From Taklimakanibacter albus (lineage in GTDB: Bacteria > Pseudomonadota > Alphaproteobacteria > Rhizobiales > Aestuariivirgaceae), in the NCBI RefSeq assembly GCF_016595235.1, contig NZ_JAENHL010000007.1:248001-312000 (forward strand): a stretch of DNA of 64,000 nt. Reading direction: 5' to 3'. The notes under the pieces were generated by a model that saw only the letters and a list, made by a program, of their open reading frames with translations, was not told the origin of the DNA and did not search any database. The position numbers and the translations under genes were made by a program. Below are positions 11,815-54,389 of this stretch, piece after piece; positions within the stretch are counted from its first letter, which is position 1; every line of letters starts with the position of its first letter.

Positions 11815-12942
11815 TCAAAATCCGTCGAAGCGCAGGACGACGCGGTTGACGCGCCCCGTTTCGACCAGAGCGATGGCTTCGTTGATGCGCTCGAAGCTCC
11901 AGACCTCGCTGACGAGCGATTTGAGATCGAGCAGTCCATGCTTGACGAAACGCAGCGCCTTGGGAAAGTCGATCATCGGCCGGGTCGAGCCATAGCTCGA
12001 GCCGATGACGCGGTTCTCGTCCTGCGCAATCCAGTAAGGTGGAAAGCCCGCCAGCGCATTTTCGGTCGGCTGTCCGATCAGCACCGTGGTGCCGGCCCGT
12101 CTTGTGGCCCGATAGCAAAGCTCGGCCTGCTCGGTGATGCCGGTCGCCTCGAAAGTGAAATCGGCGCCGTCGCCGGTGATGGCGCGCACCTGCGCCACCG
12201 GATCGCCTTCCGATGCATCGACGAAATGCGTCGCGCCGAAATGCAGCGCCTCCACTTTCTTCTCGGGCCTGACATCGACGGCGACGATGGGGAAGGCATT
12301 GCAGAGCTTGGCGCCCTGGACGACGCTGAGGCCAACGCCGCCGCAGCCGAACACGGCGACGCTGTCGCCGGGCCGGAGCCGCGCCGTGTTGATCGCCGCA
12401 CCAATGCCCGCCATCGCGCCGCAGCCCAGAAGGCAGGCCTCTTCGGACGAGGTTTCAGGCTCGACACGGATCGCGCCATTATGCGGCACGATCGTATATT
12501 CGCAGAAGGACGAGACGAGGCTCAGATGATGGATGGGCTTGCCGTCGCGCTCGAAGAAGCGCGTTGTATTGTCCCACATCGTGCCAAGCGCCGCGGCGCG
12601 CGCCACTTCCTCGCACAGCACCATGCGGCCGGCGACGCAGAAGCGGCACTGGCCGCAGGACGGCGTGAAGGTGAGCACCACTTTCTCACCGATGCGCGAC
12701 TTTGATACACCGGGACCGACGGACTCGATGATGCCGCAGGCCTCGTGTCCCAGGATCACCGGCTTCGGATGTGCCCACACACCGCGCAGATAATGGATAT
12801 CGCTCCGGCAGATGCCGGTGGTCTCGATCTTCACCCGCACTTCCATCGCATGCGGATCATCGATCTTCACCTGGCGGAGCGAAAGCACATCGCCTTCGCC
12901 CGGCGCATCGCAGACGGCGGCAAGCATGTCGAGCTGAGCCAT
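11815..12942 (-). CDS. Zinc-dependent alcohol dehydrogenase (MDR family)
   Basis: This medium-chain alcohol dehydrogenase has 375 residues. The start at 12942 is chosen for the GAGGAGGG element upstream. Catalytic zinc ligands are the Cys in TGICRSD, the His in GHEACG and the Cys in LLGCGAMAG. The structural zinc site is complete (CGQCRFCVAGRMVLC). The NAD-binding motif is FGCGGVGLS. The pattern resembles class III/aryl-alcohol-type enzymes. It is second in the operon after an SDR gene and probably oxidises an alcohol group of the imported substrate or an intermediate. Confidence 0.9.
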   Translation of the reverse strand: MAQLDMLAAVCDAPGEGDVLSLRQVKIDDPHAMEVRVKIETTGICRSDIHYLRGVWAHPKPVILGHEACGIIESVGPGVSKSRIGEKVVLTFTPSCGQCRFCVAGRMVLCEEVARAAALGTMWDNTTRFFERDGKPIHHLSLVSSFCEYTIVPHNGAIRVEPETSSEEACLLGCGAMAGIGAAINTARLRPGDSVAVFGCGGVGLSVVQGAKLCNAFPIVAVDVRPEKKVEALHFGATHFVDASEGDPVAQVRAITGDGADFTFEATGITEQAELCYRATRRAGTTVLIGQPTENALAGFPPYWIAQDENRVIGSSYGSTRPMIDFPKALRFVKHGLLDLKSLVSEVWSFERINEAIALVETGRVNRVVLRFDGF

Positions 12943-39801: not shown

Positions 39802-41490
39802 TCAGACGGCGGGTTGCGCCTTCGCAACACTCAACTGAACATTGCCGAGCCGGCCGGCAAAAGGCGCCTTGAGGGGATCGAGCTTGCGGCCCAGGATCGC
39901 GTCGGCGAGCTTTTCCGCCACCATCATCACCGGCACATTGGTATTGCCGGTGGTGACACTCGGAAAAACCGAGGCATCGATGACACGCAGCCCCTCGACC
40001 CCCTGCAGCCGACCATCGGAATCAACCACCGATTGCGCATTTTCCTTGGGTCCCATGCGGCAAGTACCGGACGGATGGAAGCCGCTGGTGCCAGTATTGC
40101 GACAGAATTCCAGCACGGCCTCATCCGAGGTCGTATCGGGACCGGGCCTGAGCTCTTCCCCCCGCACCCCATCAAAGGCCCTTTGCGCAACAATGTTGCG
40201 CGCAATTCTGACACAGGTGATCGCCTTCTGCCGGTCGAACTCGGTCGAGAGATAGTTGAAGGTGATGTGGGGCGCCGCCAACGGGTCCGCCGAGGGGATT
40301 TCGACCTGCCCCCGGCTCTTCGGCCGCTGGTGGCAGATGGCGATGGAGAAACCCGCGGGAGACGGCTGCGGCACATAGCCGGTCGCCGTCTGGAACGGCA
40401 TGAATTGCATCTCGGTATCGGGATAGCCGAGCGCGGCCTCGCTGCGGACGAAGGCCACAGCCTCGTCATGATTGGATTCGCCCAGGCCCTTGCGCGTCAG
40501 CATCCAGCGCAGGCCGATCAACGCCTTGCTGAGCTTGGTGAGCCGCGGATTGAGCGACGCCGCCGGCGGACAGGTCCAGCACAGATAGAATTCGAGATGA
40601 TCCTGCAGATTGCGCCCGACACCCGGCAGCTCATGCACGAGCGCGATGCCGGCCTTGCGCAGGGCCTCGCCCGGACCGATGCCGGAGCGCAGCAGGATCT
40701 GCGGGCTGTTGAAGGCGCCGGCCGACAGGATGACCTCGCGCCGGGCGCGCGCCTCCTTGCGAAGCCCCCTCTGGATATAGGCGACACCGCGGGCGCGCCC
40801 CTCTTCCACCAGCACCTTGTCAGCGGTCGCTTCGGTGATGATGCTGAGATTCTTGCGGCCGCGCACCGGACGCAGATAGGCCCAGGACGTGCTCGCCCTG
40901 ATCCCATCGTCGGTATTGCGGTCAAAGAGGCCGAAGCCCTCCTGCTGAGGACCGTTGATGTCGGCCGTCCGCGGATAGCCTGCCTGCTCGCCCGCCGCCA
41001 GAAACGTGTTGTAGGACGAGAAGCTCAACGGCCCATTGCGCACCTTCACGGGACCGGAACGGCCGCGATAGAGATCATCGCCGCCCTCGAAACTCTCGAG
41101 CCTTTTGAAATAGGGCAGCACGTCCGCATAGGACCAGCCCGCCGCCCCTTCGCTCACCCAGCGCTCATAGTCATTGGGATTGCCGCGCGTATAACACATG
41201 CCGTTGATCGAGGACGAACCGCCCAGGATCTTGCCGCGCGGATGAAACACCTGCCGGCCGTTAAGATAGGGCTCGGGCTCGGAATTATAGAGGTAATTGT
41301 ATTTGGCGCGCTCGAAATTGATGCCCATCGCGGCAGGCATCCTGACCGTCCAGTCGCTGTCGCGGTCGGCCGGCCCCGCTTCGAGCAGCAGCACCCTCAG
41401 CTTCGGATCGGCCGACAGGCGATTGGCGACGATTGCCCCCGCCGAGCCCCCACCCACGATGATGTAGTCGAATTCCGCCGGGCTCGTCAC
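39802..41490 (-). CDS. GMC-family FAD-dependent oxidoreductase (choline dehydrogenase-like)
   Basis: This flavoprotein of 562 residues oxidises an alcohol to an aldehyde. The start is GTG at 41490, with GAGGAAC upstream. Motifs: FAD dinucleotide fold IIVGGGSAGAIVANRL (about residues 10-25), GGSSSINGM, GAFNSPQILLRSGIG, catalytic His in GFHPSGTCRMG and Asn/His-type pair in TTGNTNVPVMMVAEK. The GESNHDEAVAFVRS loop resembles alphaproteobacterial BetA, but that alone does not prove choline as substrate. It is the last gene of the IclR-linked operon and could feed the aldehyde dehydrogenase at 48642-50072. Confidence 0.88.
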   Translation of the reverse strand: MTSPAEFDYIIVGGGSAGAIVANRLSADPKLRVLLLEAGPADRDSDWTVRMPAAMGINFERAKYNYLYNSEPEPYLNGRQVFHPRGKILGGSSSINGMCYTRGNPNDYERWVSEGAAGWSYADVLPYFKRLESFEGGDDLYRGRSGPVKVRNGPLSFSSYNTFLAAGEQAGYPRTADINGPQQEGFGLFDRNTDDGIRASTSWAYLRPVRGRKNLSIITEATADKVLVEEGRARGVAYIQRGLRKEARARREVILSAGAFNSPQILLRSGIGPGEALRKAGIALVHELPGVGRNLQDHLEFYLCWTCPPAASLNPRLTKLSKALIGLRWMLTRKGLGESNHDEAVAFVRSEAALGYPDTEMQFMPFQTATGYVPQPSPAGFSIAICHQRPKSRGQVEIPSADPLAAPHITFNYLSTEFDRQKAITCVRIARNIVAQRAFDGVRGEELRPGPDTTSDEAVLEFCRNTGTSGFHPSGTCRMGPKENAQSVVDSDGRLQGVEGLRVIDASVFPSVTTGNTNVPVMMVAEKLADAILGRKLDPLKAPFAGRLGNVQLSVAKAQPAV

Positions 41491-41548: not shown

Positions 41549-42676
41549 TCAAATCCCCGCCTTCACTTCCTCGAACATGGCATTGACCTTGGCGTTGACC
41601 TCGGGCGCGAACTCCTCATAGAAGCGCCCGCCCTGCAGCACCTTGTCGGGATTATCGATGCCGAGCTCCTCGAGCCGGCTGGTATCGGTGATCGCATAGG
41701 CTTTCGCATTGGGCGAGCCATAGCCGAATTTGTCGATCAGGACCTTGCCGCTTTCGGCCGAGATGAAGGCGTCGATATAGGCGAGCGCCTCCTCCTCCGA
41801 GCCCGGCCCGCCCTTGACGCGCACCGTGACGTCGACCCAGCTGAGCCGCCCCTCTTTCGGCGTCATATAGCCGACATCGACGCCTTGGCTCTTGAGCGTC
41901 GAATAGGAGCTGTTCCAGCCATAGGCGGCGACGATCTCGCCCGACGCCATGGCCTGTTGCATATCGGTTTCGTTGGTCCAGTAGAAGCGCAGCAACGGCC
42001 GCTGCTCGACCAGCTTGGCGCGGATCTTGGCCAGATCGTCATCCGACATATTGTAGGGATCGGCGATACCGAGCACGAGGGCGGCCACCACGGTCACCGA
42101 ATCCATGCCATCGCGCTGGGCCAGACGGCCGCTATATTTGGGATCCCACAGGATGTTCCAGCTCTGGTTCTCGACATATTCGGGCGCCAGATCGCGGCGA
42201 TAGATCACCGAGCTGTTGCCCCAGGCCGCCGGCACCGCCACCACGTCCTCACCGACCTTCATGCCCCTGAGCGTTTTCAACTGTGGGAAGACATCCGCGT
42301 AATTCGGAAGTTTTGAGACATCAATGGGCGCGAGCAGTCCGGCATCATGGAAGCGCTTGAGGACGGCGCTGCCCGGCTGCGCCAGCGTCGGAAGTGCACC
42401 GGCGCGCATGCGCTGCAGCGCTTCCTCATTGTCCGCGAACAGCTGGACCGCCGGCGAGCCGCCATAGGTTTCCGTGAATTTCTTATGCAGATCGGGCGAC
42501 GAATAGGCCTCCCAGGTGGCGATCGAGATCGACGGCGCCGCCGCGGCGGGACGAATATAAGGCAGCGTCAGCACACCGACGCCCACCGCCATCAACGCCT
42601 TGTGGATGTCGCGCCGGGTGAAAGCCTTTTTGGTAAGCCCGTCCTTGAATTCGGAGAGTTCGATTTTCCTGGTCAT
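41549..42676 (-). CDS. Pot-type ABC transporter, periplasmic substrate-binding protein
   Basis: This receptor of the third Pot-type importer has 375 residues. The start at 42676 is chosen because GAGGG lies upstream and a promoter occupies the region where an earlier TTG would start. The N-terminus holds FTRRDIHKAL, a twin-arginine motif, then GVGVLTLPYIRPAAA. The mature part starts ISIATWEAY. It is related to the receptor at 209-1330 (shared VPAAWGNSSVIYR-type segment). It has its own promoter (42713-42742), which fits the need for excess receptor. Confidence 0.91.
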   Translation of the reverse strand: MTRKIELSEFKDGLTKKAFTRRDIHKALMAVGVGVLTLPYIRPAAAAPSISIATWEAYSSPDLHKKFTETYGGSPAVQLFADNEEALQRMRAGALPTLAQPGSAVLKRFHDAGLLAPIDVSKLPNYADVFPQLKTLRGMKVGEDVVAVPAAWGNSSVIYRRDLAPEYVENQSWNILWDPKYSGRLAQRDGMDSVTVVAALVLGIADPYNMSDDDLAKIRAKLVEQRPLLRFYWTNETDMQQAMASGEIVAAYGWNSSYSTLKSQGVDVGYMTPKEGRLSWVDVTVRVKGGPGSEEEALAYIDAFISAESGKVLIDKFGYGSPNAKAYAITDTSRLEELGIDNPDKVLQGGRFYEEFAPEVNAKVNAMFEEVKAGI

Positions 42677-42712
42677 TTCTGCCCTCTTTCTGGGTCGTTT
42701 CCCTGACAATCT

Positions 42713-42752
42713 GGTATATTTGCTATTATCGGATGTCAACCGCTATTATAGC
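42713..42752 (-). promoter_or_regulatory. Promoter/operator P1 of the third Pot-type receptor gene
   Basis: On the minus strand CGGTTGACATCCGATA (42742-42727) contains a perfect -35 TTGACA; TATACC (42718-42713) follows after a 15-base spacer. The same 16-base block with the same spacing to TATAC occurs in P2 at 51932-51961, upstream of the TPP-enzyme gene. A perfect 11-bp palindrome GCTAT-T-ATAGC overlaps the upstream edge (42742-42752). Shared control of both transcription units is inferred. Confidence 0.6.
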
Positions 42753-42756
42753 AATA

Positions 42757-43860
42757 TCAACTTACCGGCAGGAGAACGCAGGCCTCCGGCGTCCAATTGA
42801 GCCAGACGCCCTGCCCTTCATCGACACACGACTCGACGCTGCGGGTGAGCTTCTGGGTGGCGACCGCGATGCGCCGGGGATGGCCCGCCGCCTCGACGTA
42901 ATAATGGCTGCGGTCGCCGAGATAGGCTTCAGGTCCCATCCGGCCGGCGATCATGTTGGGCCCGGGCGCGGGGGCGCTCTTAAGGAGCCGCAGCTTCTCC
43001 GGCCTGACCGCCAACGAAACCCGCTCTCCTGTCACCGGGCGATGCTCGCTCACGCCTGACAGCAATGTGCCGAGCGGACCTCCATCGATCTCGATCTCGT
43101 TGCCGCGCACCGCTTTCACGACGCCGTCGAAGAAATTCATCGTGCCGATGAACTCCGCCACGGTCCGGCAATTGGGCGTCTCATAGATGCGTGTCGCCGT
43201 ATCGATCTGCAGCACCTTGCCCTTCGCCATGATGGCGATACGGTCAGACATGGTGAGCGCTTCTTCCTGGTCATGCGTCACGAAGACGAAAGTGATGCCG
43301 ACCTGGCGCTGGATCTGGCGCAATTCGAGCTGCATCTCCTCGCGCAGTTTCTTGTCGAGCGCGCCGAGCGGCTCATCGAGCAGCAGTACCTTCGGCTTGC
43401 AGACGAGTGCCCGCGCCAGAGCGACGCGCTGGCGCTGGCCGCCCGACAGCTGGTCCGGCCGGCGCGATCCATAACCCGGCAATTTGATCGTCTCGAGCGC
43501 CTGATCGACGATCGCATTGAGCTCACTCTTCGGCAGCCGCAGGCGCGCCAGGCCGTAACCGATATTGGCGCGCACATCGAGATGCGGGAAGATCGCATAA
43601 TTCTGGAACACCATATTGGTCGGGCGCCGGTTCGGCGCCACGTTCGACATCGGCTGGCCGTCGATGAGGATCTCGCCGCGGCTCGGTTGCTCGAAGCCCG
43701 CCAGCATGCGCAGCAAGGTCGTCTTGCCACAGCCCGAGGGGCCGAGGAGCGAGAAGAACTCGCCGCGCCCGATGTCGAAGGAGACGTCGTCGACCGCCTG
43801 GAAGGCGCCGAAGGATTTGCCGACGCCGCGGATGGAAATATAGGTTTCGGATGCGGTCAT
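42757..43860 (-). CDS. Pot-type ABC transporter ATP-binding protein (PotA-like)
   Basis: This 367-residue ATPase of the third Pot-type importer has Walker [10 protein letters not shown], signature LSGGQRQRV, Walker [13 protein letters not shown] and switch [10 protein letters not shown], followed by a TOBE-like C-terminal domain (FIGTMNFFDG, VRPEKLRLL). GAGG lies eight bases before the ATG. It is eighth in the operon, after the two permeases and before the receptor. Confidence 0.93.
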   Translation of the reverse strand: MTASETYISIRGVGKSFGAFQAVDDVSFDIGRGEFFSLLGPSGCGKTTLLRMLAGFEQPSRGEILIDGQPMSNVAPNRRPTNMVFQNYAIFPHLDVRANIGYGLARLRLPKSELNAIVDQALETIKLPGYGSRRPDQLSGGQRQRVALARALVCKPKVLLLDEPLGALDKKLREEMQLELRQIQRQVGITFVFVTHDQEEALTMSDRIAIMAKGKVLQIDTATRIYETPNCRTVAEFIGTMNFFDGVVKAVRGNEIEIDGGPLGTLLSGVSEHRPVTGERVSLAVRPEKLRLLKSAPAPGPNMIAGRMGPEAYLGDRSHYYVEAAGHPRRIAVATQKLTRSVESCVDEGQGVWLNWTPEACVLLPVS

Positions 43861-43870
43861 GGATCGCGCC

Positions 43871-44665
43871 TCATTTGGCCTGAACGTCCTGCCGCCTCAG
43901 CCATTCGGAGAGAGCGACCGCGACGAAGGAAAACAGCAGGATCAGGCTGCCCAGCGCCAGCACGCCCGGCAGCTTGTTCGGAAAGCGCAGCTGGCTGAAG
44001 ATGAACATCGGCAGCGTCGCCTCATTGCCGGCGAGGAAGAAGGCGAGCACGAATTCATCAAAGGATATGGTGAAGCAGAGAAGCAGGCTCGCCACGATGC
44101 CGGGCAACGCCAAGGGCACGGTGACCCGCCAGAAGGTACGCCAGGCGCTTTCGCCGAGATCGAGGGACGCCTCCTCGAGGCTGCGGTCGAAACCCTCGAG
44201 CCGCGAAGTCAGCACCAAAGTAGCGAAAGGCAGGCAGAGCAGCACATGGCCGGCGCCGACGGTGAAGAGCGACAGCGGGATCTCGAAGATCTGCCGCGCG
44301 ATGACGAGAAGCCCGATGCCCAGAATGAGGACCGGCACGACCAGCGGCAGCAGCAGCAACCCGGTGATGAGCCTTTTGCCGGGTAGATATGGACGCGTCA
44401 GCCCCTTAGCGGCGAGAAGGCCCAGCGCCGTGCAGATGATCGACACCGTGACCGCGAGCTTGAGGCTGTTCTGCAGCGCCTGGATCAGCGGCCCGTTCTC
44501 CGCCATCTGGCGGTACCATTCGAAGGTGAAGCCCTTCAAAGGGAAGGCGATATAGATGCTGTCATTGAAGGAGAACAAAGGCAGCAGCAGTACCGGCGCA
44601 TAGAGGAACAGCAGGTAGAGCACCGCATAGAGGAAAAGCGCGTCGAAGCGGAACAGCCGGCTCAT
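43871..44665 (-). CDS. Pot-type ABC transporter permease (PotC-like)
   Basis: This 264-residue inner-membrane permease has the EAA loop EEASLDLGESAWRTFWRVTV and [15 protein letters not shown]. Its ATG overlaps the PotB-like stop codon by four bases (ATGA), giving translational coupling. It is part of the third Pot-type importer. Confidence 0.91.
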   Translation of the reverse strand: MSRLFRFDALFLYAVLYLLFLYAPVLLLPLFSFNDSIYIAFPLKGFTFEWYRQMAENGPLIQALQNSLKLAVTVSIICTALGLLAAKGLTRPYLPGKRLITGLLLLPLVVPVLILGIGLLVIARQIFEIPLSLFTVGAGHVLLCLPFATLVLTSRLEGFDRSLEEASLDLGESAWRTFWRVTVPLALPGIVASLLLCFTISFDEFVLAFFLAGNEATLPMFIFSQLRFPNKLPGVLALGSLILLFSFVAVALSEWLRRQDVQAK

Positions 44666-45603
44666 GCGCGCGCTCCCTTGGCCGAGGACCGGCCGGGGCC
44701 GACGAGCTTAAGGAAGAGGCAGACGAGCAATGTGATCGCCAGCATGGCGATGATCGACACCGCGGCGCCGAGCGGCGCATTATTGGCCTTGCCGAAAAGC
44801 GACTGGATGATGTTGCCGATCATCACGCCTTCGGTGCCGCCGACCAGCGTCGGCGTGATGTAATCGCCGACCGTCGGGATGAAGACGAGCAAAGTGGCCG
44901 CGATCACCCCCGGCATCGACAACGGCAAGGTCACGCGCAGGAAACGCCTCAACCGCCCGTCGCCGAGATCCGTTGCCGCCTCGAGCAGCGACCGGTCGAT
45001 CTTCTCGAGCGAGACATAGATCGGTAAGATCGCGAAGGCGGCCCAGCTATGGGCGAGCGTGCCCGTCACCGCGATCGGATTATAGAGCAGGAATTCGAGC
45101 GGCTTGTCGATCAGGCCGAGGGAGATCAGCCCGGAATTGATCACGCCATTGAACCCTAAGATCACCTTCCAGGCGAAGACGCGCAGCAGATAGCTGGTCC
45201 AGAACGGCACCGTGATCAGGATCAGCCAGACGAGCTTGTGGCGCTTGACCCGGAAGACCAGGAAATAGGCCATGGGATAAGCGAGCAGCACGACGATGAG
45301 GGTCGCTACGAGCGACATCTTGATCGAGCGCCACAAGAGCGTCAGATAGATCGGCTTCTCGAAGATGCCGAAGGGATTGGCCAGGAAATCGATCGGCTTG
45401 TCGGCAAGCGCGAAGATCGCCGCGTAATTCTTGAAGGTGAATTCCTTGACCAGGGTGAAATAATCCTGGCTCCAGAAGCTCAGCACGATCAGCGCCAGGA
45501 GCGGCACCACCAGCATGGCGAAGGCCACCACCAGCGCCGGCGCCAGCAAAAGATAGCCGCGCAGGCTCTCGGGCCCCAAAGGTGATGTGCCGGGCGCGCC
45601 CAT
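44662..45603 (-). CDS. Pot-type ABC transporter permease (PotB-like)
   Basis: This 313-residue inner-membrane permease has the EAA loop EAATDLGDGRLRRFLRVTLP, followed by VGDYITPTLVGG. It starts three bases after the stop codon of the TIM-barrel isomerase gene, so enzymes and transporter lie on one transcript. It is close in sequence to the permease at 1347-2264. Confidence 0.91.
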   Translation of the reverse strand: MGAPGTSPLGPESLRGYLLLAPALVVAFAMLVVPLLALIVLSFWSQDYFTLVKEFTFKNYAAIFALADKPIDFLANPFGIFEKPIYLTLLWRSIKMSLVATLIVVLLAYPMAYFLVFRVKRHKLVWLILITVPFWTSYLLRVFAWKVILGFNGVINSGLISLGLIDKPLEFLLYNPIAVTGTLAHSWAAFAILPIYVSLEKIDRSLLEAATDLGDGRLRRFLRVTLPLSMPGVIAATLLVFIPTVGDYITPTLVGGTEGVMIGNIIQSLFGKANNAPLGAAVSIIAMLAITLLVCLFLKLVGPGRSSAKGARA

Positions 45604-45606
45604 CGC

Positions 45607-46428
45607 TCAGAGCCGACGCGTGAGCGCGGCGGCGCTCTGCTTGAGATCGGCGTCGGGGTTGGTCGAGATGATCTCGAAGACGAGGACCGACCCGAGATCG
45701 AGATCCGTAATGCTCCGCGCCAGCGTTTCGAGCGGCACGATGCCGTGCGGCGTGTCGAAGGCACGGTGCTCCGGCACATCAGCGCGTGTATCGGAGAGAT
45801 GCACCGCTTTGAGCCTCGGCTTCAGGAGCTCCAGGCTCTCGGCCAAATCCTCCTGCAGGAAGGCGGCATTGGCGATGTCATAAGCGATACCGATCCCGTC
45901 ATCGCCATGCTCCGCGAGCGCCGTCATCAGATTGGCGGCGCGCGGCAGGATCGACATCGGCATGTTCTCGACCAGGAGCTGCACGCCGAGCCGCTTGCCG
46001 ACGGCATTCAACGTCGCGAGCCCGTCATGGAACCAGCTGAGCGTCGTCTCGCGCGGCAGCGATAGGAGCCCATTGGGCTTGCCCGGCCCGATGATCAACG
46101 CCGGAGCGCCCAGATCGGCAGCGAGCTCGAGCCCGCCGCGCATGAGCGCCAGCGTATAGGCACGCATCTCCGGCGTCGCCCCGGTGAGATTGAGATCCAT
46201 ATTGGGCTGGTTGAGCCCGCTGATGGTGATCTCTTCGGCATCGACGAGGCGGCGCAGCGCCAGGCGCTCAGGCTTTGACAGTTCCGATGGCCAAAGATGG
46301 CCCGGAAACATCATCAGCTCGAAGCTGCGATAGCCCTCCTTCATGAGATGCCGAAGGCAATCGACGGCGCTCATGGCATACATGTAGGAATAGGTGTTCA
46401 CGCCGAAAGGCGATGCCTCGACTGCCAT
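45607..46428 (-). CDS. Sugar phosphate isomerase/epimerase-like TIM-barrel protein
   Basis: This 273-residue protein is of the xylose-isomerase/AP-endonuclease-2-like TIM-barrel family. The ATG at 46428 has GGTGGAG upstream; a GTG four codons earlier is an alternative. Metal-ligand candidates are Glu in LLVENMPMS, Asp/His in YDIANAAF and VHLSDTRAD, and Glu in LVFEIIST. Members isomerise or epimerise sugars, keto acids (hydroxypyruvate isomerase) or inositol derivatives. In this operon it likely works on a small hydroxy-keto intermediate. Confidence 0.84.
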   Translation of the reverse strand: MAVEASPFGVNTYSYMYAMSAVDCLRHLMKEGYRSFELMMFPGHLWPSELSKPERLALRRLVDAEEITISGLNQPNMDLNLTGATPEMRAYTLALMRGGLELAADLGAPALIIGPGKPNGLLSLPRETTLSWFHDGLATLNAVGKRLGVQLLVENMPMSILPRAANLMTALAEHGDDGIGIAYDIANAAFLQEDLAESLELLKPRLKAVHLSDTRADVPEHRAFDTPHGIVPLETLARSITDLDLGSVLVFEIISTNPDADLKQSAAALTRRL

Positions 46429-46466
46429 GGCCTGCTCCACCGGCTTGCCCGCTCAGTTATGTCCGC

Positions 46467-47399
46467 TCAGTTGTACTCGACCGGCGTCGCATCCGGGCCT
46501 TGGCCGTGGCGCGCCCAATAGCCGTCGCGCAGGCGCGACGTCACGGCGCCCGGCCGGTCATTGCCGTAGATGCGCCCATCGAGACGCGTCACCGGCATCA
46601 CGCCGCCGCCGGTCGAGGTGATGAATACCTCGTCCGCCCCGCGCAATTCCTCGGCGCTGAGCTTGCGCTCCTCCGCCACAAATCCCTGCTCCCTGGCGAG
46701 CTCGAGCACGGTGCGCCGTGTCACGCCTTCGAGCACCCCGGCATCGGGTGTCACCACCTTGTTGCCGATGACGGCAAACACATTGAAGCCCGGCCCTTCG
46801 GTGACATTGCCGTCATAATCGAGCAGGAACACCGAATCGACGCCCTTGTCATAGGCTTCCCAGATGCTGCGCACCGAATCGAGATGGTGGAAGTTCTTCA
46901 CTTTCGGATCGACCGAGCCGGGTGGGATGCGGAAGGTGGAGCCGATGATGACATGCAGCCCCTTCTCGCGCTTTTCCGGCGAAGCGAGCCAAACGAAGGG
47001 AATGGAATAGGCGATGAAGCGGTTCTGGCACAGCCGCATGTCGCGGCTACCGACCGGCGGGCGCCCGCGCGTGCAGATCATCGCCACATAGGCATCGCGA
47101 TAGCCGCTGCGCTTGACGCATTCCATCAGGATCGTGCGGACTTCATCGCGGCTATAGGGGATCTTGTAACGCAGGGCGTCCATCGAAGCGAAGAAGCGGT
47201 CGAGATGCGCCTCCAGGCGGAAGAAGCTGCCCTGCCACACATGCGCGACGTCATAGGTGACGTCCGAGCGGGTGAAGCCGAAATCGAAGACCGAAACCGT
47301 CGCCTCGCTCACCGGCACGAACTTGCCGTTGAAGAAGGCGACGCCCGGAATGTCCTCGACGGGCCTGGTGTCTTTTTCGATTTTCTCGATGATCGTCAT
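46467..47399 (-). CDS. Class IV (branched-chain/D-amino-acid type) aminotransferase
   Basis: This PLP enzyme of the fold-type IV family has 310 residues. The PLP lysine is in PKVKNFHHLDSVR, the cofactor-phosphate region in TEGPGFNVFAV, and STGGGVMPV near the C-terminus completes the site. GGGAGGAAAC precedes the ATG. It transfers an amino group between an amino acid or amine and a keto acid. Its substrate range (branched-chain L-, D-amino acids or (R)-amines) cannot be fixed from sequence. The FHHLDS and RPPVGSRD elements are less usual than in IlvE. Confidence 0.88.
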   Translation of the reverse strand: MTIIEKIEKDTRPVEDIPGVAFFNGKFVPVSEATVSVFDFGFTRSDVTYDVAHVWQGSFFRLEAHLDRFFASMDALRYKIPYSRDEVRTILMECVKRSGYRDAYVAMICTRGRPPVGSRDMRLCQNRFIAYSIPFVWLASPEKREKGLHVIIGSTFRIPPGSVDPKVKNFHHLDSVRSIWEAYDKGVDSVFLLDYDGNVTEGPGFNVFAVIGNKVVTPDAGVLEGVTRRTVLELAREQGFVAEERKLSAEELRGADEVFITSTGGGVMPVTRLDGRIYGNDRPGAVTSRLRDGYWARHGQGPDATPVEYN

Positions 47400-47424: not shown

Positions 47425-48603
47425 TCAAGCCCCGATCACGGTGATCTCGCGCGGCGTGCGGCGGTTCAGTGCTTCCTTGCCGGTCTCCGTCATCACCAGG
47501 ATCTCCTCGATGGTGATGTCGCAGCCATTGCCATAAGTGAGATTGGGCTCGACCGAAACCACGAGGCCCGGTGTGAGCTCGGTATCGTCATTGCGCGTGA
47601 TCGAGGGCGCCTCGGTGATCTGGAAACCGATGCCATGGCCCATGCGCTCGCCGCGTGCCGCCGGCCCCTCGCCCGACAGCACCTTATACTGCGCGTGCCA
47701 GACATCGCGGGTGCGCACGCCGGGCTTCATCGCCTGGAGCCCGGCCTCGGTCGAACGCCAGACGAGGTCGTAAGCATGTTTCGTCGCCTTGTCGGGCTCG
47801 CCGATGCCGAAAATGCGCGGCACATCGGTGAAATAGCCGTCGATCTGGCCGCAGACATGCAGCAGCAGCACATCGCCCTTCCGCATCGGCCGGTCGGTCG
47901 AGGGCAGGATGGTCGAGGTATAGCCGCCGGGGCCGGAGGTCGAGATCAGATAGGGCACCGCATCGGCGCCATTCTGCATCAGATGCAGGCTGAGCTTGCG
48001 GGCGATGCTGCGCTCGCTGTCGCCCGGCTCATAAAGGCTCGGCAGCACATCGAGGCTGTCGCAGACGATGTCGCCGGCAAGCTTGATGCGGGCCACCTCG
48101 CCCGGTGATTTCACGCTGCGCAGCCGCGCCATGAGCTTGCTGCAATCGACGAAGGTCAAAGGCTGGATACGGTCGCGGATGGCGAGGAAATCGTTGAAGG
48201 GCACGCCCAGCCGGCATTCCGGCCCGAGCTCGGCGCCGATCCAGCCGAATTCACGTTTCACGTTGGCGAGAGTGGAGCTCACCAGCGACACGCCTTCATC
48301 GCCGGGCTGCGGCGACGGCCAGGTCTCGATCCGGTCAATCGCCGAGGTGGCGCGCATGACCACCGCGCCATGCTCGGAAACGATGGCGACCGGGTCACCC
48401 ACCCGCGGCAGAATGAAGAACCACGGCCGCGTCAGGCTCAGCCAGAAGGGGGTGACGAGCCCGGTCAGGTAATTGAAATTGAACTCCGACGTGATCAGCA
48501 GCGCGTCGAGCTTGGCTTCCGTCATCAGCGCGCGGGCGCGCTCCATGCGCGCTTCGAATTCCGGCCGGGTGAATGCCGCGGGGCGCTTTCGGGCGCTTGT
48601 CAT
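47425..48603 (-). CDS. M24-family (prolidase/creatinase-fold) hydrolase with altered metal site
   Basis: This 392-residue pita-bread-fold protein starts at 48603, with GGAGGAAC upstream. The N-terminal creatinase-type domain is followed by the M24 core. Of the five metal ligands of true aminopeptidases the first Asp is replaced (LLLHVCGQIDGY, His and Cys where Asp-x-Gly is usual). The second Asp (TDVPR), His (MGHGIG), Glu (TEAPS) and final Glu residues (VEPNL, TIEEIL) remain. Relatives with altered ligands act as creatinase or ectoine/DMSP-type enzymes rather than peptidases. In this operon it probably hydrolyses an amide or C-N bond of the imported compound. Confidence 0.86.
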   Translation of the reverse strand: MTSARKRPAAFTRPEFEARMERARALMTEAKLDALLITSEFNFNYLTGLVTPFWLSLTRPWFFILPRVGDPVAIVSEHGAVVMRATSAIDRIETWPSPQPGDEGVSLVSSTLANVKREFGWIGAELGPECRLGVPFNDFLAIRDRIQPLTFVDCSKLMARLRSVKSPGEVARIKLAGDIVCDSLDVLPSLYEPGDSERSIARKLSLHLMQNGADAVPYLISTSGPGGYTSTILPSTDRPMRKGDVLLLHVCGQIDGYFTDVPRIFGIGEPDKATKHAYDLVWRSTEAGLQAMKPGVRTRDVWHAQYKVLSGEGPAARGERMGHGIGFQITEAPSITRNDDTELTPGLVVSVEPNLTYGNGCDITIEEILVMTETGKEALNRRTPREITVIGA

Positions 48604-48641
48604 TGGTGTTCCTCCATCCATTTTCTTCTGCCCGGCATGCC

Positions 48642-50072
48642 TCAAAGATTGAAGACGACGAGACGCTGATCGGTCATATCCTCGATCGCATAACGCGGCC
48701 CCTCGCGCCCCATGCCGCTATCCCTGACGCCGCCATAGGCCAATTGATCGGTCCTCCAGGTCGATGTCCCGTTGACGATGATGCCACCGGTCTTGAGCTT
48801 GCGCACGAGATCGAAGGTCGTTTGATTCGAGGCGGTGAAGATACCGCATTGCAGCCCGAAACGGCTTCGATTGGTGAAGTCGACGACCTCGCTCAAATCA
48901 TCATAAGGAAGGATGCTGACGACCGGACCGAAGACCTCGTTGCACACCACCTCCATCTGCGGCTTGACGTCGACGAGAACGGTAGGCTCATGGGCGGCGC
49001 CGTGGCGGACACCACCGGTCAGGACCTTCGCGCCATTTTTCCGCGCATCATCGACCCAGCTTTCGACCCGCTTCGCCGCCGCCTCATCGATCAGCGTGCC
49101 GACATCGGTCGCCGGATCGAGCGGATCGCCGAGCTTTAGCTCCTTCACCTTGTCGAGCAGGATGGCCACGAAGGCGTCGAAACGCGAACGCTCGACCAGC
49201 ACCGTCTGCACCGAGATGCAGCTCTGCCCGGCAAGGCGCATCGAATTGCGCGCGCAGGCGGTCGCCGCCGCGGTGATATCGGCATCGGAATGGACGATGG
49301 TCACGCCATTGCCGCCGAGCTCCAGCGCCACGCGCTTCAAGCCGCTGCCGGCCTTGATCGCCGTGCCCGCCTGGGTCGAGCCGGTGAAGGTAATGAAGTC
49401 GACGCCCGGATGGGCAACCAGCGCCTTGCCGATCTCGGCGCCGCCATGCACCACATTGAGCGCGCCCTCTGGAAAGCCCACTTCCTGGACGATCTCGATC
49501 ATCCGCTGGATGGCGAGCGGCGTCTGCGGCGGTGGCTTCAGCACGATCGCATTGCCGGCGGCGAGCGCCGGCGCGACTTTATGCGCGGTGAGATTGACCG
49601 GCGCATTGAAGGGCGTGATCGCCGCCACGACGCCGACCGGAAAGCGCAGGAGAAAGGCATAGCGCCCCGCCCCCATGGCCGACCCGTCGAGCGGCACATG
49701 GCGGCCCTCGATGCGGATCGCTTCCCCCGCCGACAGCGAGAACGTGTCGACGGCCCGGTCGATCTCACCTTGCGAATCGCGCACGGCCTTGCCGCTCTCA
49801 CGGCTGAGCAGCTTGGCGATCTCCGACTTCTCGGCGGCAAGCCGCCCCGCCACCTTTTGCAGGCGGTTCTGGCGCTCATGGCCGGGCATCGCCGCCATGG
49901 CGTCCGCTCCTTTGCGCGCCGCGGCAATGGCGTCTTCGAGATCGCTCAGGGTCGCCTGTGCCGAGGCGCCCACCGTGTCGCCGCGATAGGGATCGACGAT
50001 CGGATGTTGGTTCTTGGAGCTGCGCCAGGCGCCGGCGATCAGCATCGGCGCGTCTTTGTGGTCTTTCGTCAT
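48642..50072 (-). CDS. NAD(P)-dependent aldehyde dehydrogenase
   Basis: This 476-residue ALDH-superfamily enzyme oxidises an aldehyde to an acid. The catalytic Cys is in LAGQSCISVQ, the general-base Glu in LELGGNG and the Asn in TPFNAPVN. The N-terminus (APMLIAGAWR) resembles phosphonoacetaldehyde- and lactaldehyde-type dehydrogenases. GAGAGG precedes the ATG. It is second in the operon and would act on the aldehyde made by the GMC oxidase or released by the TPP enzyme or M24 protein. Confidence 0.92.
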   Translation of the reverse strand: MTKDHKDAPMLIAGAWRSSKNQHPIVDPYRGDTVGASAQATLSDLEDAIAAARKGADAMAAMPGHERQNRLQKVAGRLAAEKSEIAKLLSRESGKAVRDSQGEIDRAVDTFSLSAGEAIRIEGRHVPLDGSAMGAGRYAFLLRFPVGVVAAITPFNAPVNLTAHKVAPALAAGNAIVLKPPPQTPLAIQRMIEIVQEVGFPEGALNVVHGGAEIGKALVAHPGVDFITFTGSTQAGTAIKAGSGLKRVALELGGNGVTIVHSDADITAAATACARNSMRLAGQSCISVQTVLVERSRFDAFVAILLDKVKELKLGDPLDPATDVGTLIDEAAAKRVESWVDDARKNGAKVLTGGVRHGAAHEPTVLVDVKPQMEVVCNEVFGPVVSILPYDDLSEVVDFTNRSRFGLQCGIFTASNQTTFDLVRKLKTGGIIVNGTSTWRTDQLAYGGVRDSGMGREGPRYAIEDMTDQRLVVFNL

Positions 50073-50087: not shown

Positions 50088-51869
50088 TCAGAACAGGACG
50101 CGGCTGCCGAAGACCGGCTCGCGATGCTGAAGCGGTGGCAACTGCCAGGTGCCGGTGCTCGGCGGCTTGATGTCGGAGCGCACATGCACGTCGATCAGGC
50201 AGGGCTTGCCGAGGCGGAGCGCATGCTGAACGGCGCTGCCAAGCTCGTCCTCATGTTTGACCGTCAGGCCCTCGACGCCGCAGGAGCGCGCCATCGCGGC
50301 GAAGTCCGGATTATAGGCGTCCTTGTTGGAGCCGTGATGGAAGGCGGTGCCGATCTCGCGCCCGTCGAACAGCCCATGCTGCAGGTCGCGGATGGCGCCC
50401 CAGGCGAAATTGTTCCACACGATCCAGATCGCCGGGATGTCGTATTCGACCGCCGTGCACAGCACATGCGGCGCCATGGTGAAGCCGCCATCGCCGACCA
50501 CCGCCACATGCGGCCGGCCGGGGGCGGCGAGCGCCGCGCCGAGCACCCCGCATACCCCGAAGCCCATCGCCGAGAAGCCCCAGGAATTGAGCATGGCTTG
50601 CGGATGCCGCGCTTTCCAGAACTGCATGAACCAGTTGTGATGCTGGCCTGAATCGAGGCTCAGGATCGTGTCGGCCGGCAGGATGCGCTGCAGATCGGCG
50701 ACGATCGTCTCCGGCCTGACCGGAGATGTGCTCTCTGTCTCATCGGGTTTGAGGAAGTCCTGCCATTCGCGCTGCCAGCCGGCGATCGCCTTGCGCCATT
50801 GCGCGAAACGGCTGTTGGCGTCGAAAGCGCCGCGGCCGGCAAGCTCTTCCACCAGCTGGCGCAGGAAAGTGCGCGCATCGGCGGTGGCACCGATGGTGAC
50901 CGGATAATTGCGGCCGATCTCGGCCGGATCGATGTCGATATGGACGAGCTTGGTCGCCGGGAAATTCCACGAATAGCCCTGGATCCAGGTCGAGGATGAG
51001 CGATCGTCGAAACGCGCGCCGACCGCGATGACGAGATCGGCATGGCGGCCCGCCTGGTTCGCCGGATATGCGCCATTGCGGCCGATGAAGCCCAAGGACA
51101 GCGGATGATACATGTCGAGCGTGCCCATGCCATTGGGTGAGCTGATCACCGGAATGGCGAAACGTTCGACGAGCTGGGTCAGGTCGGCGGAGGCTTCCGA
51201 CAAGGTCACGCCATGGCCGACGAATAGCACCGGACGTTCGGCGCGGGCGACGAGATCGGCGATCTCGGCGATGGTCTCGCGCGCCACGCCGGAGCGGATC
51301 GTCGTGCCCTTGGCGTCGGACCGCGTCACCGTCACGTCGGCCTCTTCCTGGAAGACGTCATAGGGCACATCGAGATGCACCGGGCCCGGGCGTCCCGACA
51401 CCATGAGATTCATGCTCTGGCGCAAAGCGAGCGGCAGCATCTCCGGCCGCGACGGCTGGAAAGAGCGTTTCACATAAGGCCGCATCACCGAGGGAAAGTC
51501 GCCCTGGAAATGCTGATAGGATTCCTGGAACGGCCCGCGATTGAATTGCGAGGTCGGCACATTGGCGGTGATGGCGAGAAAGGCCGAGGAATCGGCCTGG
51601 GCGCAGGCGGTCGCCATGACGATATTGGCCGAGCCCGGCCCGCAGGAGGTGAGCGTCGCCACCGGTTTGTGCGCCACGCGGAAATAGGCATCCGCCATAT
51701 GGCCGGCCACCTGCTCATGGCGTGGCGAGATCAGCTTGATCTTATCCTGATAGTCGTAAAGCGTGTCGAGGATGCCGACATTGCCATGCCCGCAGATGCC
51801 AAAAATATAGGGCACCTCTTCCTTGGCGAGAAATTCGGCAATGATTTCAGCGCCCTTCATCTTTCCCAT
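50088..51869 (-). CDS. Thiamine-diphosphate-dependent enzyme (acetolactate synthase-like)
   Basis: This 593-residue enzyme has the three-domain architecture of decarboxylases and carboligases. The catalytic Glu is in SPRHEQVAGHMADAY (about residue 52). The C-terminal ThDP motif runs from VGDGGFTMAPH to VWNNFAWG (GDG to NN). It has no regulatory-subunit partner next to it and sits at the head of a catabolic operon, so a role in branched-chain synthesis is unlikely; a glyoxylate-carboligase- or sulfoacetaldehyde-type catabolic reaction is more plausible. GAGGGAG precedes the ATG. An alternative start lies three codons downstream. Confidence 0.88.
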   Translation of the reverse strand: MGKMKGAEIIAEFLAKEEVPYIFGICGHGNVGILDTLYDYQDKIKLISPRHEQVAGHMADAYFRVAHKPVATLTSCGPGSANIVMATACAQADSSAFLAITANVPTSQFNRGPFQESYQHFQGDFPSVMRPYVKRSFQPSRPEMLPLALRQSMNLMVSGRPGPVHLDVPYDVFQEEADVTVTRSDAKGTTIRSGVARETIAEIADLVARAERPVLFVGHGVTLSEASADLTQLVERFAIPVISSPNGMGTLDMYHPLSLGFIGRNGAYPANQAGRHADLVIAVGARFDDRSSSTWIQGYSWNFPATKLVHIDIDPAEIGRNYPVTIGATADARTFLRQLVEELAGRGAFDANSRFAQWRKAIAGWQREWQDFLKPDETESTSPVRPETIVADLQRILPADTILSLDSGQHHNWFMQFWKARHPQAMLNSWGFSAMGFGVCGVLGAALAAPGRPHVAVVGDGGFTMAPHVLCTAVEYDIPAIWIVWNNFAWGAIRDLQHGLFDGREIGTAFHHGSNKDAYNPDFAAMARSCGVEGLTVKHEDELGSAVQHALRLGKPCLIDVHVRSDIKPPSTGTWQLPPLQHREPVFGSRVLF

Positions 51870-51931: not shown

Positions 51932-51961
51932 CGTATATCTCACAATATCGGATGTCAACCG
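51932..51961 (-). promoter_or_regulatory. Promoter/operator P2 of the TPP-enzyme operon
   Basis: On the minus strand CGGTTGACATCCGATA (51961-51946) supplies -35 TTGACA; TATACG (51937-51932) follows at a 15-base spacer. Block and spacing are identical to P1 at 42713-42742. The intervening TCTCACAATATCG (plus-strand reading, 51938-51950) also occurs upstream of the IclR gene (53097-53109), making this a likely IclR-regulated site. Confidence 0.6.
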
Positions 51962-51964
51962 ACA

Positions 51965-52257
51965 ATGTAGAAATACTGTGGATGACGCGTTTACCCTCAC
52001 CCCCTTGCGGGAGGATCGACGCGAAACGCCGGGATTGGGATCTGGAAGTGTCGAATGCTTGGCGGCAGGATCAGGGTGCTCTTCTCAACCTTTCCGCGCG
52101 ATCGGAAGAGCCCTCCCGCCTATGAGGCTCTCCCAATTCATTCGCACATCTCCTCCTTCCCACGCAAAGCGGGGGAAGGAGAAGGATGTGTGAATCCTGC
52201 AGCTTGCCCACGAGGTGGAGCGTAAAAACAGAGATAAATCCGAACCCGCTGTGAGAC
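51965..52257. repeat. Intergenic region with dispersed repeat fragments and a hairpin
   Basis: Between the TPP operon promoter and the IclR stop codon no gene is supported. It contains a partial copy of the CCCTCACCCCC repeat (near 51992) and an inverted repeat at 52145-52190: CACATC and CTCCTTCCC pair with GGGAAGGAG and GATGTG. That hairpin may end the IclR transcript, but no T-run follows it. Confidence 0.45.
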
Positions 52258-53073
52258 TCAGGCCTTGGCCTTGCCTTCCGAGAAGCCCAGCTCCGCCGAC
52301 AGCCGGTTGGCGGCTACGATCACCTTTTGCGTGAGCTCGGGCAATTGCTGCAGGCTCACGCGCCACAGCGGTCCCGAAAGGCCGAGCGCCGCGATGACCT
52401 TGCCGGAGTAATTGCGCACCGGTGCGGCGATGCATCTGAGCTCGCCGTTGAATTCGCGGTCATCATAGGCGGCGCCGACCCGGCGCGCTTCCTTCAGATC
52501 GGCAAGGAGCCGCTCCGGGCTGGTAATCGTGCTGTCGGTGACGGATGTGAGCTTGTTGCGTGCCAGATAGGCCTCGATATCCTTGTCGGAAAGCTGGGCC
52601 AGCAGCGTCTTGCCGATCGCCGTGCAATAGGCCGGCCGCTGCGCGCCGACGCGTTCCGACAGCCTGACCGTGGCCTTGCCTTCATGGCGCGCCAGGATGA
52701 CCGCCATGTCGTTGGCCATCACCGCGATATGGGTCGTCTCGCCTGTTTCATTGGCGAGCCATTCGAGATGCGGCATGGCGTCGGCGACCAGATTGGCCTC
52801 CGTCGCCGCGCTCGCCGCGAGGCCATAGATATAAGGCCCGATGCGGTATTTCTTGTCGGCATCCTGCTTCACCGGCCCGATGACGCAGAGCGTGCGCAGG
52901 AGATGGAAGGTGGTGCTGGTATGGAGCCCGATCGCCTTGCTGATCTCGGCCAGGGTCAAGGCGTGGTCGGCGCGCGCGATCAGGTCGATGATGGCGAAGC
53001 CGCGCTCGATCGACTGCACGGTGCGGACCTGCGCTTTGTCGGCGCTGTCGGCCGGGCCCTTCATGTCATCCAT
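52258..53073 (-). CDS. IclR-family transcriptional regulator
   Basis: This 271-residue regulator has an N-terminal winged helix (LTLAEISKAIGLHTSTTFHLLRTL without gaps across about residues 39-62) and a C-terminal IclR effector domain with AYCTAIGKTLLAQL and DREFNGELRCIAAPV, the usual ligand-pocket segments. It lies directly upstream of the TPP/Pot/GMC operon on the same strand. Its own upstream region shares 13 bases with promoter P2, so it probably regulates itself and the operon in response to the substrate or an intermediate. Confidence 0.92.
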   Translation of the reverse strand: MDDMKGPADSADKAQVRTVQSIERGFAIIDLIARADHALTLAEISKAIGLHTSTTFHLLRTLCVIGPVKQDADKKYRIGPYIYGLAASAATEANLVADAMPHLEWLANETGETTHIAVMANDMAVILARHEGKATVRLSERVGAQRPAYCTAIGKTLLAQLSDKDIEAYLARNKLTSVTDSTITSPERLLADLKEARRVGAAYDDREFNGELRCIAAPVRNYSGKVIAALGLSGPLWRVSLQQLPELTQKVIVAANRLSAELGFSEGKAKA

Positions 53074-53096
53074 CTCGGAAATCCTACAAAAAGGCT

Positions 53097-53109
53097 TCTC
53101 ACAATATCG
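53097..53109 (-). promoter_or_regulatory. Candidate IclR operator (P3)
   Basis: TCTCACAATATCG is identical over 13 bases to the segment inside P2 at 51938-51950 and matches P1 at about 8 of 13 positions. It lies 24 bases upstream of the IclR start codon, a usual position for autoregulation. Confidence 0.5.
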
Positions 53110-53150
53110 TAAGACTGACTTAGCCCCCCACGGGCCAATTCACAAGTGCC

Positions 53151-54245
53151 TCACCGCGCCGGGGCGAGCTGCGCCAGGAGCCGCGCAAGGTCGACTTGCC
53201 GCCGGCAGCCGGTCTTGCCGAGTACGCTCTTCAGCTGGTTGCGCACGGTTTCGACGCTTTTGCCGTCGGCGCGGGCGATTTGCTCAGCTGTCTGCCCAGC
53301 CGCGACCCGCGCCGCCACCACCGCTTCCACCGGTGACAGATCGAACAGCGCCTGGAGCAGCGGCGTCGCCTCGGTCGGCACCGTCGAAGCCGTGGTGAGG
53401 ACCAGGATGGCCGCCGCCTGCCCGAAAAGATCATGCGCGGCGCGCCGGATCGGCACCACATGCAGCACCGCCGGCGGCGCATCTTCCTCCGGCACAAGCG
53501 GCAGCGACCGCACCCCCAGCCCCGTCGCGATCAGGCCGAGCGCTTCGCCGAGCATCTCGTCAGCGCGCCGGTCGGTGAGCGCGATGCGGTTACGGCCGCG
53601 TGTCGTCCACAGGGCCTTGGCCGCTTCAAACTCGGTATTCGCGACCACCACAGTGCCCGCCCGGCTGACCGCGCAGGCTGCGAGGCCCAGGCCCGACAGG
53701 GTCTCGACTGCGGTGCGTGCCCGCTCGAAGGCAAGCCGTGCCGCCACCAGCGCCGAGCGAGCGAGATGCGGCCTGAGACCGTCGAGGCTCTGAAAGATCG
53801 CCGGTGTGAACGGCCCGAGCCGGTAATCGCCTTCGGCGCTCAGAATGATCGTGTCGCCGGTCGGCACATTGATCGCGGTGGCGATGCCGCGCCCGAAGCC
53901 GGTCGGGATCAGATACTCCGCATAAAGCGGCTCGGTAAGCATCTCGGTTTCCGTATAAACCTCGTGGTCGCCGACGAACCCGGCCCGGTTCATCGCCATA
54001 AGACGTCGCGAGCGATCCGCCCCGCCCGGGAAGCTGTAATGCTGGCGCGCAAGTTCCTCGGCGAGCGGCGAGCAGCCGATCCATTTGAAGCTCCCTGCCC
54101 GCGTGGCGACCAGCGCCGCGGCACGGCACTCCGCCACCTCCGCGAAGCCGCGCAGTACTTGCGGCCAGAACTCCGGCAGCACGGCGGCTTCATAGATGCC
54201 GTCCACCAAGTCCTCATGCGCCGATCCGCCGTCAGATCGTATCAT
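53151..54245 (-). CDS. LuxR-type HTH transcriptional regulator (orphan)
   Basis: This 364-residue protein ends in a LuxR/FixJ-type helix-turn-helix: LSPVEAVVAARVAAGQTAEQIA, then SVETVRNQLKSVLGKTG. The N-terminal 290 residues resemble a PAS/GAF-like sensor seen in stand-alone rhizobial regulators, not an autoinducer-binding domain, and no receiver domain is present. The ATG at 54245 is chosen as the first Met in a plausible context; an upstream extension would run through a hairpin element. No partner kinase or synthase is nearby. Target unknown; possibly the adjacent Liv-type operon. Confidence 0.8.
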   Translation of the reverse strand: MIRSDGGSAHEDLVDGIYEAAVLPEFWPQVLRGFAEVAECRAAALVATRAGSFKWIGCSPLAEELARQHYSFPGGADRSRRLMAMNRAGFVGDHEVYTETEMLTEPLYAEYLIPTGFGRGIATAINVPTGDTIILSAEGDYRLGPFTPAIFQSLDGLRPHLARSALVAARLAFERARTAVETLSGLGLAACAVSRAGTVVVANTEFEAAKALWTTRGRNRIALTDRRADEMLGEALGLIATGLGVRSLPLVPEEDAPPAVLHVVPIRRAAHDLFGQAAAILVLTTASTVPTEATPLLQALFDLSPVEAVVAARVAAGQTAEQIARADGKSVETVRNQLKSVLGKTGCRRQVDLARLLAQLAPAR

Positions 54246-54279
54246 CGCTCGTCCCGGAACTGTTACAGGTCCAACACTA

Positions 54280-54389
54280 GGGCAAATCCCGCCAAAGTTG
54301 AAGACTTTGGCGATAAGGATTTGCCCCAAGATATAGATCTCGCGCGAATCCTCTTCGGCGAAGTGATTCCACTTCGCCGGGATGCGCGC
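54280..54389. repeat. Tandem double-hairpin intergenic element (copy B)
   Basis: Hairpin 1 spans 54280-54326: outer stem GGGCAAATCC/GGATTTGCCC and inner stem CGCCAAAGT/ACTTTGGCG with loop TGAAG. Hairpin 2 spans 54342-54389: outer stem GCGCGAATCC/GGATGCGCGC (9 of 10) and inner stem CGGCGAAGTG/CACTTCGCCG with loop ATTC. It sits between the LuxR gene and the end of the Liv-type operon. Architecture parallels copy A at 30970-31085 although the sequences differ. Confidence 0.65.

Follow-up and report, generated by a model that had tools for sequence, protein, structure and literature searches.

Predicted tandem operators of an IclR-family regulator in a catabolic operon of Taklimakanibacter albus and at a second, unlinked operon

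Results

Two distant genes of one operon share a predicted tandem palindromic operator

We analysed a stretch of 64,000 nucleotides from Taklimakanibacter albus (contig NZ_JAENHL010000007.1, positions 248,001 to 312,000; hereafter the window), in which the 16-mer CGGTTGACATCCGATA stands on the minus strand before two distant genes of the same operon. The finding is real and its explanation is mostly ordinary: it is a new set of IclR-family tandem operators. Judged by its sequence, the 16-mer forms the middle of a tandem operator of 37 bp, composed of two imperfect 17-bp palindromes whose centres lie 20 bp apart. We predict that these sites are the tandem operator of the neighbouring IclR-family regulator (52258 to 53073, minus strand), an assignment of operator and regulator that we regard as highly probable.

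The genes form a sugar-type catabolic operon with two candidate promoters, each with such an operator around its −35 box. All are on the minus strand, and the first one behind the upstream operator encodes a TPP-dependent, acetolactate-synthase-like enzyme (50088 to 51869), which stayed below the cut-off in every NCBIfam model among the 25 matches listed. The others encode an aldehyde dehydrogenase (48642 to 50072), an M24 peptidase/creatinase-like protein (47425 to 48645), a class IV aminotransferase (46467 to 47399), a xylose-isomerase-like TIM barrel (AP_endonuc_2; 45607 to 46440), two permeases and one ATPase of an ABC transporter whose nearest models are polyamine-type (42757 to 45603), an extracellular solute-binding protein (SBP, the receptor; 41549 to 42706) lying behind the second operator, and a GMC oxidoreductase (39802 to 41490). 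Adjoining the operon end, positions 34281 to 39737 encode an 1818-residue protein with repeated Ig/cadherin-like domains.

The upstream operator (51937 to 51973, minus strand) reads TTTCTACATTGTCGGTT gac ATCCGATATTGTGAGAT, its boxes occupying positions 51957-51973 and 51937-51953. The second one (42718 to 42754, minus strand) sits in the short gap between the stop codon of the ABC ATPase gene, which ends at 42757, and the start of the SBP gene at 42706; it reads TTGCTATAATAGCGGTT gac ATCCGATAATAGCAAAT, with boxes at 42738-42754 and 42718-42734. In both operators a TTGACA hexamer, the candidate −35, runs from the end of the first box across the linker of three bases into the second box, of which it takes the first base (51953 to 51958 and 42734 to 42739, minus strand). 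A single box, TTACGATATTGTGAGAA, lies upstream of iclR (53096 to 53112, minus strand) and is putatively autoregulatory. It contains a partial third copy of the 16-mer, CGATATTGTGAGA at 53109-53097, that was absent from the preliminary description. No good second box was found 18-22 bp from this single box.

For group 1 of the IclR family, a subgroup consensus WTTYCRYW3RYGRAAW and a spacing of 18-22 nt between tandem sites are given in PMC8222616. Of the 17 positions of this consensus, the boxes match 13 and 14 at the TPP operator, 11 and 13 at the SBP operator, and 14 at the box before iclR; over the ten boxes of this genome (G000) and of the congener G437 the fit ranges from 11 to 15 of 17, that is, the boxes are imperfect. 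When pairs spaced by exactly 20 bp were sought in the window with the consensus, the TPP and SBP operators ranked first and second of 63,964 positions, ties not counted. When all spacings from 18 to 22 were allowed, the TPP operator was still first (score of 27), and several pairs at 25-26 ranked above the SBP operator (24). Four marks of an IclR-family tandem operator were found: fit to the group 1 consensus, a spacing within 18-22, a neighbouring IclR gene with HTH and effector domains, and a site before that gene itself. Two other descriptions of the site were dropped. A single extended inverted repeat with TTGACAT at its centre (a 14-base matrix) gave way to the two tandem palindromes, since the direct-repeat spacing of 20 recurs elsewhere with or without TTGACAT between the boxes; a lengthened central part, which the Aminobacter TPP site had suggested by eye, failed at the other sites.

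We compared four congeners (G247, G435, G436 and G437). The TPP gene is present at 98% identity in two of them, G435 and G437, and both carry both operators together with the box before iclR. In G435, one base of the 16-mer is altered at the TPP site, and the iclR box, which differs by one base, is by eye a better palindrome. G437, in which a sequence related to the iclR box is also found, has one base altered in each of the two sites; its DNA upstream of the TPP gene aligns poorly with that of the window, save for the operator and the presumed leader.

Tandem pairs follow an IclR homologue in related loci

We then studied a held-out set of 17 loci carrying relatives of the TPP enzyme at 49-67% identity, from six plasmids and 11 other genomes. 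The TPP enzyme served as the probe; the M24 protein, when used as such, returned one near-identical record and matches in other species of at most 44%. The plasmids were the 6 of 46 records reaching at least 60%; the 40 below 60% were left out, as were four same-family TPP loci at 45-46% (G422, G423, G427 and G428). Eight of the 17 loci contain a homologue of IclR, at 42-46% identity and with a tblastn E of at most 1e-15.

The loci were scanned with a symmetric matrix built from the ten boxes of G000 and G437. The best tandem pair was unmatched by 60 shuffles in seven of the eight loci with an IclR homologue and in none of the nine without (5 of 5 against 2 of 12 under the initial labels, in which L077, L083 and L084 were classed as lacking IclR; these three were moved, on the basis of earlier tblastn matches, after the scores had been seen). 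No shuffle reached the best pair in L070, L072, L073, L077, L079, L081 or L084, two of 60 did so in L083, and between 8 and 55 of 60 did so in the nine loci without IclR. With 300 column-permuted matrices, the score was reached by none in six of the IclR loci, by one in L084 and by seven in L083, which is marginal; in the loci without IclR it was reached by 52 to 250 (Fisher p of 4e-4 for the split). The spacing of 20 was the best in the range 8-60 in six of the eight loci with IclR and in none of the nine others, the exceptions being L077 (32 first, 21 second) and L083 (38 first). The second box is often weak in these loci, as in L072 (18.4 and −0.2).

The plasmid pUSP3 of Aminobacter sp. MSH1 (L070) has three tandem pairs with a spacing of 20, at 7389, 10042 and 17689. 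They stand before an SBP gene, a Gfo/Idh gene and a TPP gene, with scores of 35.1, 33.9 and 29.2; of 60 shuffles, none reached either of the first two scores and one reached the third. GCGGTTGACAT occurs in both the SBP and the Gfo/Idh pairs. Sites resembling those of the window recur, as far as sequence likeness tells, in other Alphaproteobacteria; what the DNA itself shows are the boxes with their spacing and position, their conservation, and their presence together with IclR homologues.

Two observations on the loci themselves may be added. In the L070 cluster there are two TPP genes, with 50% and 67% identity to that of the window. The TPP homologue of Ponticoccus alexandrii p-SCP2 (L072:383-2162) is annotated as two overlapping genes and matched in three pieces, and it may be frameshifted in that record.

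A second operon carries two tandem pairs in trans

A looser pattern search led to a third place in the genome, at about 680.4 kb of contig C7 and some 380 kb from the window sites. Two tandem pairs with a spacing of 20 are found there (L117:12371-12407 and 12495-12531, about 680.4-680.5 kb), with scores of 29.1 and 32.9; the window pairs, having trained the matrix, score 41.3 and 37.1. They occupy a divergent gap with isomerase and GMC oxidoreductase genes on one side and an SBP gene on the other, and this isomerase and this oxidoreductase are 47% and 60% identical to those of the window. Both pairs recur in G435 (32.9 and 28.8). We found no second copy of this isomerase in G437, G247 or G436 (E up to 1e-30); the 19 kb around the pairs contain no homologue of IclR at E up to 1e-5. 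A lone pair scoring near 29 is no proof, since one of the 60 L070 shuffles reached 30.1; chance would hardly produce two such pairs within 160 bases next to related genes. The tandem matrix was applied to the loci returned by the pattern searches and to a 400-kb genome sample (GC 0.628), in which the top tandem score was 17.9; the regulon may therefore have further members.

Elsewhere in the genome the single-box pattern gave 22 matches, against one for the reversed control, and the best tandem context outside the known operators scored 16.2 (C8:2147058). At this place, remote from the operon, the exact single-box pattern YYCGATAWTGTGAGAW is found (G000:C8:2147058-2147073, L096). Another single strong box, ACCTCACATTATCGAAT (L118:11364, C7:247363-247378, score of 16.6), lies about 0.6 kb before the window start, near SBP and permease genes starting just inside the window that are 34% and 59% related to those of the operon.

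Position of the boxes and sign of control

The candidate −10 sequences, TATACG (51932 to 51937) and TATACC (42713 to 42718), both on the minus strand, lie 15 bases from the TTGACA hexamers. The preliminary description had given this TTGACA and 15-base spacer; its arithmetic is right, and a −10 at TATAC with that spacer is plausible from the sequence, although unproven. It had also placed the 16-mer nine bases before TATAC: eight bases separate the two, and TATAC begins at the ninth.

Should the boxes be occupied as we predict, two IclR dimers, that is, a tetramer, could sit on one face of the DNA, their centres being 20 bp or two helical turns apart. The −35 would then lie at the junction of the boxes and the second box would fill the spacer between −35 and −10. 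In such a model, where we infer DNA binding, tetramer, inducer, −10 position and transcript starts alike, the IclR tetramer would keep RNA polymerase off both promoters, that of the TPP gene and the internal one of the SBP gene, as long as no ligand is present, and a metabolite of the pathway, acting as inducer, would release it from the operators. The internal promoter could yield extra binding protein compared with the membrane components while keeping both under common control; the placement of an operator before SBP genes recurs in Aminobacter and at 680 kb of C7. Through the single box before its gene, IclR would in addition regulate itself.

We consider repression, as opposed to activation, to be the probable sign of control, since protein on both boxes would lie over the −35 as well as the spacer. 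With the operator and its regulator unchanged, IclR might instead activate these promoters or act in both ways, the 15-base spacer making them dependent on it. This is possible and clearly the less likely sign. The IclR family does include activators and dual regulators (PMC8222616), and BhcR, whose model is the nearest NCBIfam match of the window protein, is described as possibly dual (PMC11323563). Moreover, a promoter scan with spacers of 16-18 reported no promoter using the two TTGACA hexamers, which stand 15 bases from TATAC; over the SBP operator it gave TTGCTA-18-GATAAT on the minus strand and TTGCTA-18-TATTAT on the plus strand (9 of 12 matching positions each), with four promoters found in the stretch against 2.1 expected. 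Against activation, the second box lies between the −35 and the candidate −10, where a bound protein normally blocks polymerase. The earlier suggestion that the short spacer makes the promoters dependent on a regulator is likely as to the dependence; the argument for a regulator stands independently of the spacer.

The neighbouring IclR is the best candidate regulator

The protein encoded at 52258-53073 matches HTH_IclR (53.3 bits) and IclR_C (152.6 bits). In its presumed recognition helix, the position of which was deduced from the HTH match, it carries ST[TA]FHL, and so do all eight IclR homologues of the TPP clusters. Another regulator of this genome, either an IclR paralogue or the adjacent LuxR-type protein (53151 to 54329), could in principle bind the sites, and the genome does contain 18 further IclR-family matches (E up to 1e-8). 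These paralogues are, however, at most about 33% identical to the window protein, and ST[TA]FHL is found in none of the 15 of them that could be aligned through the helix. By hand count, 1-7 of 13 helix residues of the window IclR are matched in the paralogues and 7-12 in the cluster IclRs, the lowest of which, that of L077 with 7, does no better than the best paralogues. As for the LuxR-type match, it is weak, with 20.5 bits for a cut-off of 23.5. Control by such another regulator is thus improbable, and the neighbouring IclR, at which the preliminary description had hinted, stands as the best candidate by its helix motif and by the co-occurrence of its homologues with the tandem pairs.

The operator, not the −35, is the constant element

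A further explanation would dispense with a specific regulator: the −35 and its flank would be conserved as a sigma-70 promoter module, selected for polymerase. In its favour, TTGACA and TATAC are identical and equally spaced at both sites, in the window as in G437. We scored 17 tandem pairs, some with a weak second box, for TTGACA at the junction with at most one mismatch. It is present in eight of them, or in 6 of 15 when the two given sites are excluded, for a chance of about 0.009 per pair if even base use is assumed. At 31 other offsets it occurs in 0-4 of the 15 pairs, the highest counts being four at offset 2 and three at offset 22, inside the boxes. The remaining 9 of 17 pairs lack it at the junction, and two of these (the SBP pair at C7:680 and the Aminobacter TPP pair) have TTGACA within the second box. 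Since TTGACA occupies the junction, to within one mismatch, in 6 of the 15 other pairs, hexamer and operator can be told apart: what stays constant is the operator, in many but not all cases with the −35 placed at its centre. Conservation also spans the two palindromic boxes outside the hexamers, and the tandem pairs track an IclR homologue, so that a module kept for polymerase is very unlikely. The "identical promoter module" of the preliminary description does not hold as such, its identity being explained by a tandem pair of IclR-type boxes; its claim of shared promoter-region DNA at two starts of one operon is borne out as shared regulatory DNA.

The 16-mer occurs exactly at 51961-51946 and 42742-42727 of the minus strand, before genes starting at 51869 and 42706, as had been reported for the TPP and receptor genes, and no other exact copy exists in the window or elsewhere in the 7,174,682-base genome. 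A genome-wide search for the 16-mer shows it to be no common repeat: when at most three mismatches were allowed, 20 matches were obtained (two exact, none with one mismatch, one with two, 17 with three), and the reversed pattern gave nine in the same search. Over the stretch that begins with ATTTCTA and ends with TATACG, the two sites agree at 32 of 43 positions; in the immediate flanks they agree at 14 of 47 on the upstream side and at 17 of 45 on the downstream side. A mobile or genome-wide repeat is ruled out by the two exact copies and the unrelated flanks, and a recent duplication, or a mobile repeat, that carried one promoter to the second place, which the 16-base identity within that similar stretch might suggest, is hardly credible in view of the same counts and flanks and of the presence of both sites in G437, whose SBP is 91% identical.

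Discussion

What began as a visual repeat has become a candidate regulon, made up of a regulator, the code of its operator and five candidate sites within this genome; the gains are the definition of the operator, its likely regulator and an unlinked second operon. The two unlinked gene sets are joined by related isomerases and GMC oxidoreductases, which offers a handle on the substrate, and a −35 embedded in the operator is a simple arrangement through which an IclR tetramer could repress or activate. More tentatively, a single kind of IclR regulator may serve TPP clusters in several alphaproteobacterial families, its dimers flanking a junction −35. In this genus it may also have come to act in trans on an unlinked operon whose isomerase and oxidoreductase are paralogous, so that the two operons would make up a small, uncharacterised regulon for catabolism. 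Literature searches on IclR with TPP-enzyme, GMC oxidoreductase or isomerase genes, and on operator-overlapping IclR-family tetramer repressors, gave no match; we do not claim that the motif is absent from print.

As far as the sites presented by Suvorova and Gelfand (2021, PMC8222616) go, the published WTT-11-AAW tandem sites and ours are alike in box length, in a nearly identical consensus and in a spacing within 18-22 nt. Group 1 sites resemble ours further in their position at gene starts and in an adjacent regulator gene with its own box (PMC8222616). The window boxes are unlike the published ones in that they match at just 11-15 of 17 positions and that several pairs wrap the −35. The two pairs at an unlinked operon also contrast with the general description of IclR-family regulators as controlling themselves and one or two adjacent operons (PMC8222616). 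TtgV of Pseudomonas putida is an IclR-family protein with a DNA-bound structure, and tetramer binding is reported for the family (PMC8222616); TtgV is an efflux regulator, unlike the window IclR, and the likeness noted here is one of protein family. BhcR of Paracoccus denitrificans (PMC11323563) has the nearest NCBIfam model, and the window IclR scores 193.9 bits against this equivalog (NF045644), for a cut-off of 350. The palindromic site predicted for BhcR lies near a −35, as do those of the window; it is placed upstream of the bhcA −35 (PMC11323563), whereas the window boxes wrap theirs.
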